Source: Elusimicrobia bacterium RIFOXYA2_FULL_47_53
GTDB taxonomy: Bacteria; Elusimicrobiota; Endomicrobiia; Endomicrobiales; XYA2-FULL-47-53
Reading direction: 5' to 3'
NCBI GenBank assembly: GCA_001800315.1
Contig: MGVE01000001.1
Coordinates: forward strand, 1 to 64,000
Length of the DNA stretch: 64,000 bases
A program made the position numbers and the translations under genes. Below, one piece after another: positions 763 to 10,933 of this stretch. Each line of letters begins with the position of its first letter. The stretch's first letter is position 1. Below the pieces are notes generated by a model. The model was not told where the DNA came from, did not search any database, and saw only the letters and a program-made list of their open reading frames with translations.

Positions 763-2175
763 TTAAATGAGTTTGCTTACAGCGTTCTGGCCCCAGGATA
801 TTATCTTCCTGGTTTTCTGCATATTATCGGATTCGCAATAAACGCGAATGACAGGTTCCGTGCCCGAGGGCCTGAGCAAAAGCCATGAATCGTCTTCTAA
901 AATAAACTCTATGCCGTCATAGTCCTTTATCTGTTTAACCTTTAGGCCCGCTATTTTAGACGGCGCTTTCTCTTTGAAAACTGAGACAAAGGCATTCTTC
1001 TCAATGCCGGGGTTGCGGAAGTCGGTTCTCAGGTAAGCGCTGGAGCCGTATTTCTTTTCAATTTCACTTAATAAATTTGAAAGGGATTTGCCGGTTGAAG
1101 CGAGTATCTCGGCTATAACAAGAGAGTTCAGCACGCCGTCTCTTTCAGGCAGAAAATTTCCGAAACCGTAGCCGCCGGATTCCTCGCCGCCGATGAGAAT
1201 ATCCTCCGTCATTATTTTTTCGGCGATATACTTAAAACCAATAGGCACTTCTTCAAACGGTAGCCCGAAGTCCCTGGCGATCCTCTCGCTTACATATCCC
1301 AGCGATATTGCCTGAACGACTTTTCCCCTGAGCTTTTTGTATTTAACCAGATAATATAAAAGAAGCGGGAAGACCTGATGAGGAGTCAGATATCTGCCTT
1401 TTTCATCAACAACTCCTATCCTGTCGCCATCGCCGTCGGTCGCGAGGCCGGCGTCAGCGCCGTTTCTTTTTACCGCGGATTTAAGTTCTGAAAGGTTGCT
1501 GTCAATGGGTTCTGGGTGAAGGCCGCCGAAAAGCGGATCCGATGAAGAATGAATATTAACAAGACGGCATTTTCCTCCTGATAATAGTTTTTCCATGTAC
1601 CCCGAAGCCGCACCGTACATCGGGTCAATGGCAAGATTCAAGTGGGACTTTTTTATCAGGTTTATGTCAACCGCGGGTTTCAGGGCCTTTAGATATAACC
1701 CCGTTATGTCGGTTTTGATAATCTTGCCGGCTCGTCCTTCGGGCATTGCCTCTGCCTCTATAAGCCTTTCAATTTCATTTGTAACGGTTTTGGGGGCCGA
1801 ACAGCCTTCGGGTGATTTGATCTTAAAGCCGTTATAGTTGCATGGGTTATGGCTCGCGGAAATCATTATGCCCAAATCAGCTTTAAGCGCGACCGTAGCG
1901 GCGGAGAGCGCCGGCGTGGAGACGAACCTCTCGGCGATTGCAACAGAACACCCGGTTGAAGATAGTACTTCCGCGCATGCTTCGGCGAAAGCCTTTGAGG
2001 CAAAACGGGTATCATAGCCGACGGCCACCTGAGGTGCGCGTTGTAATTTATTGTTTAAAAATACCGAGACGGCCCGGCTAACGCGTCTGACATTTTCAAA
2101 AGTAAATTCTTCCGCGATAACCGCTCGCCATCCGTCGGTTCCAAAGCTGATTTTTGGTTTATGGGATTTATTCAT
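763..2175 (-). CDS. Phosphoglucomutase/phosphomannomutase
   Basis: 470-residue alpha-D-phosphohexomutase that interconverts hexose 1- and 6-phosphates. Visible hallmarks are the catalytic serine loop SASHNP (residues 106-111, Ser108 phosphorylated), the metal loop DGDGDR near residue 248, the sugar-specificity loop GEESGGYG, and the phosphate-binding loop RPSGTEP near the C-terminus. Family members act on glucose or mannose and sequence alone does not decide which. The gene follows a mannose-6-phosphate-isomerase-type cupin by 20 bases. With the nucleotidyltransferases at 28-31 kb, this suggests a role in making activated hexoses for the surface polysaccharide. Confidence 0.9.
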   Translation of the reverse strand: MNKSHKPKISFGTDGWRAVIAEEFTFENVRRVSRAVSVFLNNKLQRAPQVAVGYDTRFASKAFAEACAEVLSSTGCSVAIAERFVSTPALSAATVALKADLGIMISASHNPCNYNGFKIKSPEGCSAPKTVTNEIERLIEAEAMPEGRAGKIIKTDITGLYLKALKPAVDINLIKKSHLNLAIDPMYGAASGYMEKLLSGGKCRLVNIHSSSDPLFGGLHPEPIDSNLSELKSAVKRNGADAGLATDGDGDRIGVVDEKGRYLTPHQVFPLLLYYLVKYKKLRGKVVQAISLGYVSERIARDFGLPFEEVPIGFKYIAEKIMTEDILIGGEESGGYGFGNFLPERDGVLNSLVIAEILASTGKSLSNLLSEIEKKYGSSAYLRTDFRNPGIEKNAFVSVFKEKAPSKIAGLKVKQIKDYDGIEFILEDDSWLLLRPSGTEPVIRVYCESDNMQKTRKIISWGQNAVSKLI

Positions 2176-2195: not shown

Positions 2196-2567
2196 CTATT
2201 TAATTCTGTTATAGTCGTCCTGAATGCGGACAATGTCGGTAAGCTGAGGGGTTGAAACTTCAATAATTCGGCACTCTTTTATGGCATGAGTCCGGTGCAC
2301 CGTTTTGGGCGGCAGATGCAGAACGAAACCGGCTTTAACCGTCTTTGTCTTGAGTTTCCCGCCAACCTTGCCGGTTGACACCTTTAAAATCCCTTTATCA
2401 ATGAAAAGTGTTTCCATTTTATTTCTGTGGTATTGAAGGCTAAGCCTGCACCCCTTTTTAACGATTAGGATCTTTGCGGCATAGGCAGGAGTATGAGCGA
2501 ACCAAATCTCCCTGCCCCAGGGTTTTTTTACAATTTTTAGTTTGCTCAATAGATTTTTATTTTTCAT
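2196..2567 (-). CDS. Cupin, mannose-6-phosphate isomerase type II-like
   Basis: 123-residue single cupin resembling the C-terminal isomerase domain of bifunctional mannose-1-phosphate guanylyltransferase/mannose-6-phosphate isomerase. It has the family opening KPWGREIWFA (residues 15-24), the metal-binding stretch LQYHRNKMETLF and the second cupin motif LPPKTVHRTHA. It would interconvert fructose-6-P and mannose-6-P, or act as a related sugar-phosphate cupin. It is a stand-alone short form with no nucleotidyltransferase domain. It is first in a leftward unit with the phosphohexomutase, and its promoter places the predicted RNA start about two bases before the ATG. Confidence 0.75.
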   Translation of the reverse strand: MKNKNLLSKLKIVKKPWGREIWFAHTPAYAAKILIVKKGCRLSLQYHRNKMETLFIDKGILKVSTGKVGGKLKTKTVKAGFVLHLPPKTVHRTHAIKECRIIEVSTPQLTDIVRIQDDYNRIK

Positions 2568-2637
2568 AGCGGTTCATTATAGAAAAATAATATTGATTTG
2601 ACAAGCAGTTTATTAATTGACTATAATACTGCCTATG
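2565..2637. promoter_or_regulatory. Divergent sigma-70 promoters sharing one -35 box
   Basis: Rightward promoter: TTGACA at 2598-2603, 18-base spacer, TATAAT at 2622-2627, then ATG of the dCMP deaminase at 2635. Leftward promoter: TTGTCA (complement of 2599-2604), 17-base spacer, TATAAT (complement of 2576-2581), then the cupin ATG at 2567. The two -35 boxes overlap by five bases. A start point about seven bases after each -10 falls at or within about two bases of each start codon, so both messages are predicted to be leaderless; neither has a Shine-Dalgarno. Box positions are read directly; the start points are inference. Confidence 0.8.
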
Positions 2638-3135
2638 AAAACAGCAAAGAAAAGCCTCGCTTACTCAAGGCCCAGCTGGGACGAGTATTTCCTGAAACTC
2701 GCGCTTCTTGTCGCTGAGCGTTCCACCTGTTTGCGTCATCATGTAGGAGCGGTAATAGTGCGCAACAAGAGAATTTTGACAACCGGCTACAACGGTGCCC
2801 CTTCCGGCACCCGGGACTGCCTGAAACTAGGCTGCCTGCGCAATGAGCTTAATATTCCCTCGGGCCACCGCCACGAGATCTGCAGGGCTATTCACGCCGA
2901 ACAAAACGCTATCATTCAGGCTGGGCTTTGCGGCGTCACCATAGAGAATTCAACAATTTACTGCACTCATTCCCCCTGCATATTATGCGCTAAAATGCTC
3001 GTAAACGCCAAAATCACGCGTTTTGTCAGCTGTTCCGAGTATGCCGACGACTCCTTCAAAAAACTTTTCAAAGAGGCCGGGATAGAATTTGTTAAAATAG
3101 AGCGCCCTTCGCTGTCAATATCCATCCTTGATTAA
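2635..3135 (+). CDS. dCMP deaminase family protein
   Basis: 166-residue zinc-dependent cytidine/deoxycytidylate deaminase. The catalytic HAE motif is at residues 87-89 and the zinc-binding PCILC at 114-118; upstream Cys/His residues (positions 62-82) fit the second zinc site of dCMP deaminases. It would convert dCMP to dUMP for thymidylate synthesis. A TTG 18 bases upstream is in frame, but the ATG at 2635 aligns with the family start and lies immediately after a consensus promoter, so translation is probably leaderless. The PPC-domain gene follows within five bases. Confidence 0.88.
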   Translation: MKTAKKSLAYSRPSWDEYFLKLALLVAERSTCLRHHVGAVIVRNKRILTTGYNGAPSGTRDCLKLGCLRNELNIPSGHRHEICRAIHAEQNAIIQAGLCGVTIENSTIYCTHSPCILCAKMLVNAKITRFVSCSEYADDSFKKLFKEAGIEFVKIERPSLSISILD

Positions 3136-3139
3136 TCCG

Positions 3140-3577
3140 ATGAAAAAACCCTTTTACAGGCAATTTAAGCCCGGCAGAATATTCATGGGGCGCCTTCACT
3201 ACGGAGATGACCTTCTGGAAAGCCTGGTGAAATTTTGCGAGGACAAAAAAATTAAGTGCGCCGCTCTGTGGCTTATCGGCGCTGTGCAAAACGCCAACCT
3301 GGGGTATTACGGGCAGAAAGAGAAGAAATATGTCAGCTGCGCCTCGCTAAATAAAAAGCTTGAGATAGCCGGATGTTCCGGGAATGTTTCCCGCAAAGAC
3401 GGCAAGGTATCGGTGCACTGTCATGTGGTGCTGGCGGACTATACGGGCAGGGCGTATGGCGGGCATTTGTTAAGCGGAACGATGGTTTTTGCTGCGGAGT
3501 TTTGCATCCGGGAGTTGAAGGGCCGGGATCTTAACCGTGTTGAAGAAAAGCAGACAGGCCTGCCCCTCTGGGGATAG
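3140..3577 (+). CDS. PPC (DUF296) domain protein
   Basis: 145-residue protein consisting of a single PPC/DUF296 domain, the fold shared by plant AT-hook PPC proteins and small bacterial proteins of unknown biochemical role. Typical features are the central HCHVVLAD and the glycine-rich GGHLLSGT, followed by a buried strand ending in the ELKG turn. An in-frame TTG at 3128 would overlap the preceding gene; the ATG at 3140 is preferred. There is no AT-hook, so DNA binding cannot be assumed. It is co-directional with the dCMP deaminase and converges on the CsgG-like gene with eight bases between them. Confidence 0.8.
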   Translation: MKKPFYRQFKPGRIFMGRLHYGDDLLESLVKFCEDKKIKCAALWLIGAVQNANLGYYGQKEKKYVSCASLNKKLEIAGCSGNVSRKDGKVSVHCHVVLADYTGRAYGGHLLSGTMVFAAEFCIRELKGRDLNRVEEKQTGLPLWG

Positions 3578-10601: not shown

Positions 10602-10895
10602 CTATTGGCCTTGCGGCGCGCTTATCGGTATTGTGGGGATCTGGCCGGTTACCGTGCTCATGTTTCTTCTTGAAGTCATAACGGTAAGCACCAAAGAAGT
10701 TAACATGAAAATTATCGCCATAGCGATTGTAACCTTTTTGATGAAAGCCATGCCCGTGGGCGCGCTGAAAAGCTGGTCCGATCCGCCTCCTCCGAACAAG
10801 CCGGAGATGCCGGATCCTTTGCCTGCCTGTAAAAGCACTATGAGTATCAGGCTTACGCAGGCAAGTATGTGAATTACAAGAATAAATGTATACAT
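10602..10895 (-). CDS. secG: Preprotein translocase subunit SecG
   Basis: 97-residue inner-membrane protein with two hydrophobic segments (about 3-22 and 51-69) separated by the Gly-rich loop QAGKGSGISGLFGGGGSD characteristic of SecG, which supports SecYEG-mediated export. The C-terminal tail is Pro/Thr-rich. No Shine-Dalgarno is visible; instead a promoter ends just before the ATG. It lies 65 bases after pgk and is followed by tRNA-Leu. Confidence 0.93.
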   Translation of the reverse strand: MYTFILVIHILACVSLILIVLLQAGKGSGISGLFGGGGSDQLFSAPTGMAFIKKVTIAMAIIFMLTSLVLTVMTSRRNMSTVTGQIPTIPISAPQGQ

Positions 10896-10904
10896 TGTTT
10901 TAGG

Positions 10905-10933
10905 ATTATACTAAAAAATACTTTAAATTTCAA
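10905..10933 (-). promoter_or_regulatory. secG promoter, near-leaderless
   Basis: On the minus strand TTGAAA (complement of 10928-10933), a 17-base spacer and TATAAT (complement of 10905-10910). Nine bases separate the -10 from the secG ATG, so the predicted start point leaves a two- or three-base leader. Confidence 0.65.

Follow-up and report, generated by a model that had tools for sequence, protein, structure and literature searches.

Genes of the locus and the question

Two divergent genes near one end of the window (the whole 64,000-nucleotide stretch of DNA analysed here) are separated by a gap of 67 bp, and a sequence-only reading placed in this gap two promoters that share a -35 box and give leaderless messages. 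Are both promoters real, are the messages leaderless, and does the shared box set one gene against the other? The host genome (2.41 Mb in 20 contigs) belongs to the order Endomicrobiales of the phylum Elusimicrobiota. Rightward from the gap runs a dCMP deaminase gene, followed after 4 nt by a PCC-domain gene; leftward runs a cupin gene, followed after 20 nt by a phosphomannomutase/phosphoglucomutase (PMM) gene. In each pair the two genes are probably on one transcript (Table 1).

The predicted start of the deaminase at ATG 2635 can be assigned firmly. Its reading frame opens at 2617 with a TTG, the only upstream alternative, which lies inside the promoter, and apart from these two there is no further start codon between the frame opening and the conserved RPSWDEYF. 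More doubt attaches to the predicted cupin start at ATG 2567: codon 7, an in-frame TTG at 2549-2547, aligns with the ATG of relatives (MSKIK/MPKIK), and the uncertainty amounts to six codons.

Table 1. Features of the divergent locus and of secG in the window
Feature	Position	Strand	Remarks
PMM	763..2175	-	PF02878-PF02880, PF00408
Cupin protein, kin to mannose-6-phosphate isomerase C-terminal domain	2196..2567	-	PF01050, 6.8e-07
Cupin -10 box TATAAT	2576..2581	-	8 nt 5' of ATG
Shared -35 heptamer TTGACAA	2598..2604	both	TTGACA 2598-2603 on +, TTGTCA 2604-2599 on -; unchanged at 11 loci (six families)
Deaminase -10 box TATAAT	2622..2627	+	7 nt 5' of ATG
dCMP deaminase (ComEB-like), predicted leaderless	2635..3135	+	Pfam PF00383, 5.3e-26; sole usable in-frame start
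PCC (DUF296) domain protein	3140..3577	+	PF03479, 1.4e-30; gene call
secG, predicted leaderless	10602..10895	-	PF03840, 7.1e-20; second such gene in window
secG -10 box TATAAT	10905..10910	-	9 nt 5' of secG

Anatomy of the two promoters

The rightward promoter reads TTGACA, an 18-nt spacer, TATAAT and, 7 nt further on, the deaminase ATG, and agrees with the consensus at 12/12 positions. The leftward promoter reads TTGTCA, a 17-nt spacer, TATAAT and, 8 nt further on, the cupin ATG (11/12). The -35 hexamers of the two strands overlap by five bases within TTGACAA, and no SD-like motif was found before the deaminase or the cupin start. The sequence-only reading had described two near-perfect promoters with overlapping -35 boxes, start codons 7 to 9 bases past the -10 and no Shine-Dalgarno (SD) sequence; its coordinates and spacers are correct base for base, and the distances and the lack of an SD motif likewise hold.

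This arrangement is not a product of chance. It is the only back-to-back pair scoring at least 11/12 both ways with overlapping -35 boxes in 1.66 Mb (69%) of the genome, and resampling the sequence five times by a first-order Markov model, block by block (2 kb), yielded no such pair at the same threshold. Across 150 genomes from the phylum, the pattern ATTATA-N15-17-TTGACAA-N16-17-TWTAAT matches 19 times and its reversed control once, with a single match in the host genome; among the matches listed, 7 are at the deaminase gene of the host or of other species. The conservation set out below supports both promoters as real.

Shared -35 boxes were also seen beside other genes. Three loci in three families (L183, L191 and L195, of genomes G004, G005 and G001) have a shared TTGACAA divergent promoter at a gene that reads as nucleoside-diphosphate-kinase-like by its sequence, and there the genes are leadered. 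In genus g12 a conserved divergent promoter with a shared -35 stands beside a 138-aa gene (L184, L185 and L186); in two of these three loci no gene of at least 60 aa starts within 260 nt the other way, and a non-coding RNA is possible. Genome G000 has near-identical promoter-like sequences starting TTGACAAGCC at C2:16772, C4:756 and C8:306549, which could belong to a repeated gene family or a mobile element. In the same genome identical pattern matches recur 2354 bp apart, at C10:77720-77861 and C10:80074-80215, which suggests a duplicated segment.

The deaminase promoter across the order

A -10-like hexamer lies 6-10 nt 5' of the deaminase ATG in 30 of the 33 Endomicrobiales orthologues, a count which, like similar ones given here, comes from genes related by descent and does not represent independent events. 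The usual form of the promoter is TTGACA-17/18-TTTAAT, and none of the 30 orthologues with a -10-like box has an SD-like motif before the ATG. As to the exceptions, locus L004 has a 40-nt spacing and an SD motif before its deaminase gene; the pattern is also broken in L015 and L024. Outside the Endomicrobiales the deaminase gene is usually close behind another gene and no such promoter is visible, which suggests that the arrangement is characteristic of this order. A separate observation concerns L172 (Paceibacterota), where, upstream of the deaminase homologue, a TATAAT stands 6 nt 5' of an ATG (GGTATAATAGAAAAATG); this distant group may have evolved a comparable leaderless layout.

Where does the deaminase message begin? 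A pyrimidine stands immediately 5' of the ATG in 26 of the 30 orthologues, against a background of 252/508 (P = 5e-5), which fits a transcript whose first base is the A of the ATG. The host genome's own TATAAT-led genes show no significant enrichment of this kind (8/13 versus 252/508). The main transcripts might instead come from another promoter further upstream, inside the opposite gene, and so carry leaders. Weaker promoter-like sites do occur there (for example at 2527 and 2563 on the + strand), but they score 9/12, the 12/12 site is position-conserved relative to the ATG across the order, and no SD motif is present for use with a longer leader; we consider this origin very unlikely. The mRNA of the deaminase thus appears to have its 5' end at its own start codon, and is very probably leaderless throughout the order.

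Leaderless genes as a class; secG

Is the deaminase a lone case in its genome? The gene starts used here were predicted only from coding potential, with no regard to motifs 5' of them. A perfect TATAAT lies 6-9 nt 5' of 17 of the 410 genes that are first in their unit. Positions 14-93 predict 2.85 such genes, an excess with P about 1e-8, and no other window of four positions holds more than 9. The same search before 606 operon-internal genes gave none, and there was no SD motif among the 20 TATAAT-led starts listed. SD-like motifs stand at 34% of unit-first starts versus 5% at a control position, so the genome mixes both modes of initiation.

An excess of such spacing had been predicted from the locus, and the gene-start test bears this out. 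The check proposed for it, a raw count of TATAAT boxes before ATG, proved uninformative: TATAAT-N6-9-ATG occurs 121 times, with 108 and 115 occurrences at control spacings, because most matches fall inside genes. Boxes with one mismatch show no excess at 6-9 nt (10, with 12.9 expected), so that the class is marked by perfect TATAAT only. With a -35 element included, TTGAC-N18-19-TWTAAT has an ATG at 6-9 nt in 9 cases and at the 30 positions 10-39 in 31. Over 60 genomes of the order the full promoter pattern gave 225 matches at 6-9 nt versus 145 at 16-19 nt (hand-summed), the latter group taking in ordinary leadered genes. Small samples of two relatives were also counted: 200 kb of G003 gave no significant excess (1 versus 0.4) and G014 a weak one (3 versus 0.6, P = 0.02). 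By these counts, the predicted leaderless genes are a real class in the host genome.

In the window the class has a second member, secG, with the promoter TTGAAA-17-TATAAT-9-ATG. The gene is likewise predicted leaderless in about 24 of 30 Endomicrobiales relatives, mostly with TTGACA-17-TATAAT-9-ATG.

The opposite promoter and its changing partner

At the deaminase gene, the back-to-back promoter around the same TTGACAA was found at 11 loci, drawn from six families (f1-f6). All 11 have the reverse TATAAT, a spacer of 17 nt and the heptamer; mean identity over the 11 loci is 7.9 of 11 in the reverse spacer and 5.3 of 11 in the flank beyond the reverse -10. Beside this -10 lies an almost invariant run of A (2584-2588 in the window, heptamer offsets -14 to -10, and likewise in 10 relatives); it could be part of the promoter or a site for a protein. 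We also asked whether the last base of the heptamer (A in TTGACAA, C in TTGACAC) marks live reverse promoters, and rejected it as a marker: the A occurs in 11/11 loci with an intact reverse -10, yet also in seven loci without an intact one, and it is clustered by genus.

The gene behind the reverse promoter is the cupin gene in five families. In the Endomicrobiaceae L009, L011, L012 and L130 the promoter is kept with a GH94 phosphorylase-like gene behind it; in genus g7 the divergent neighbour is glyQ-like (glycyl-tRNA synthetase alpha, by sequence reading) and the reverse promoter is degraded; and many Endomicrobiaceae have lost the reverse promoter while keeping that of the deaminase.

Is the message on this side leaderless too? 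In L002, the closest relative of the window, the cupin ATG lies 11 nt from the -10 and has no SD motif, a spacing which implies that near-leaderlessness on the cupin side is common to the window's family only. In the other families a longer leader precedes the cupin or GH94-like gene, and an SD motif was read in L003, L004, L005 and L188; we accordingly rejected a leaderless cupin as a conserved trait there. The cupin message of the window's family is predicted to be leaderless or near-leaderless. Of the proposal that both messages are leaderless, the deaminase half very probably extends order-wide and the other half fails beyond the window's own family.

Shared box, compact gap or switch

The reading that we hold to be probable is that two housekeeping promoters stand back to back on one -35 heptamer, giving a leaderless deaminase mRNA and polymerases that exclude each other. 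TTGACAA would be read as a -35 box on both strands, for promoters of the sigma-70/RpoD type. The rightward polymerase would start on the A of ATG 2635, or no more than 1-2 nt away from it, and produce a leaderless mRNA for the deaminase and the PCC protein; the leftward one would start at or beside the cupin ATG 2567 and produce the cupin-PMM mRNA. As the two holoenzymes depend on a single stretch of -35 DNA, they could not occupy it together, and mutual exclusion is likely. We infer the exact start sites, the leaderless translation and the exclusion from the arrangement of these elements.

Does the overlap matter, or does it merely preserve two needed promoters in a compact space, without a regulatory role? 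The second view is compatible with the anatomy of the back-to-back reading and differs from it solely on this point. A gap of 67 bp between two nearly leaderless genes would force the overlap geometrically, and gaps of at most 120 bp, found in just 4 of 26 sampled divergent pairs of the genome, are also in line with this view. Against it, in some relatives with longer gaps (129 nt in L004, 165 nt in L013) the two promoters nevertheless keep to the same heptamer, with the fixed 17-nt reverse spacer. We put the chances of the compact-space view at about even.

The sequence-only reading went further and saw a competitive switch linking nucleotide and sugar-phosphate genes, in which occupancy of the -35 would trade the supply of pyrimidine nucleotides (deaminase) against sugar-phosphate and sugar-nucleotide metabolism (cupin-PMM). 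The shared heptamer is kept in six families, the promoters are so near to consensus that occupancy could suffice for competition, and the GH94 phosphorylase-like gene that takes the cupin's place in some Endomicrobiaceae is likewise related to sugar phosphates. Against this, there is little basal competition at the bidirectional promoters of E. coli (PMC12825309), and no operator or regulator was identified at the locus. Moreover the partner varies (cupin, GH94-like, glyQ-like) and many Endomicrobiaceae drop the reverse promoter but keep that of the deaminase. Because the partner differs between families, a fixed nucleotide/sugar-phosphate link fails, and a metabolic switch seems unlikely. A version in which TTGACAA is a selected bidirectional core, inversely coupling the leaderless deaminase to a swappable sugar-phosphate partner (from cupin-PMM to GH94 phosphorylase-like), we likewise think improbable. 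Any use of the exclusion as a regulatory switch would be hypothetical.

Relation to known systems, and significance

Back-to-back divergent promoters whose -35 regions overlap are a classical arrangement. The present locus resembles them in having two diverging sigma-70 type promoters with overlapping -35 elements and divergent genes; unlike them it has no identified regulator gene or operator, and one or both of its products are predicted to be leaderless.

A second likeness is to the bidirectional promoters of E. coli, which share a symmetric -10 and at which polymerase competition matters only if one direction is strongly active (PMC12825309). In both systems one element serves polymerase both ways, and at the locus too one binding would exclude the other. 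The E. coli type shares its -10, with starts commonly 18 bp apart (PMC12825309), whereas the locus has two separate -10 boxes, shares its -35 and has predicted back-to-back starts about 67 bp apart. With both promoters near consensus, competition would be more plausible here than in E. coli.

A third is to leaderless genes whose -10 box adjoins the start codon, found in many bacteria and described as TA-led by Zheng et al. in 2011 (PMC3160421) and as -10-adjacent in Deinococcus-Thermus (PMC12340547). These too have a Pribnow-like box about 12 bp (from its first T) before the start codon, no SD motif and mostly an ATG start. The -35 of the locus is near consensus, whereas most -10-adjacent genes of Deinococcus have no clear -35 (PMC12340547). 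The main text of the 2011 survey does not mention Elusimicrobiota (PMC3160421). A literature search covering few subscription journals found, on leaderless genes specific to Elusimicrobiota, only one survey, on SD usage, in which the class is listed (PMC10783764), and by phrase nothing on shared -35 boxes.

The locus, then, is real and conserved, a conserved combination of two known phenomena in which a shared -35 replaces the shared -10. With one -35 and two strong opposite promoters, it offers a compact natural construct for measuring polymerase competition in which no regulators take part. For the organisms themselves, it indicates that the leaderless layout of particular housekeeping genes, those for dCMP deaminase and SecG, is stable over order-level time in the Endomicrobiales; most of this order is uncultured, and its genomes use Shine-Dalgarno sequences as well.
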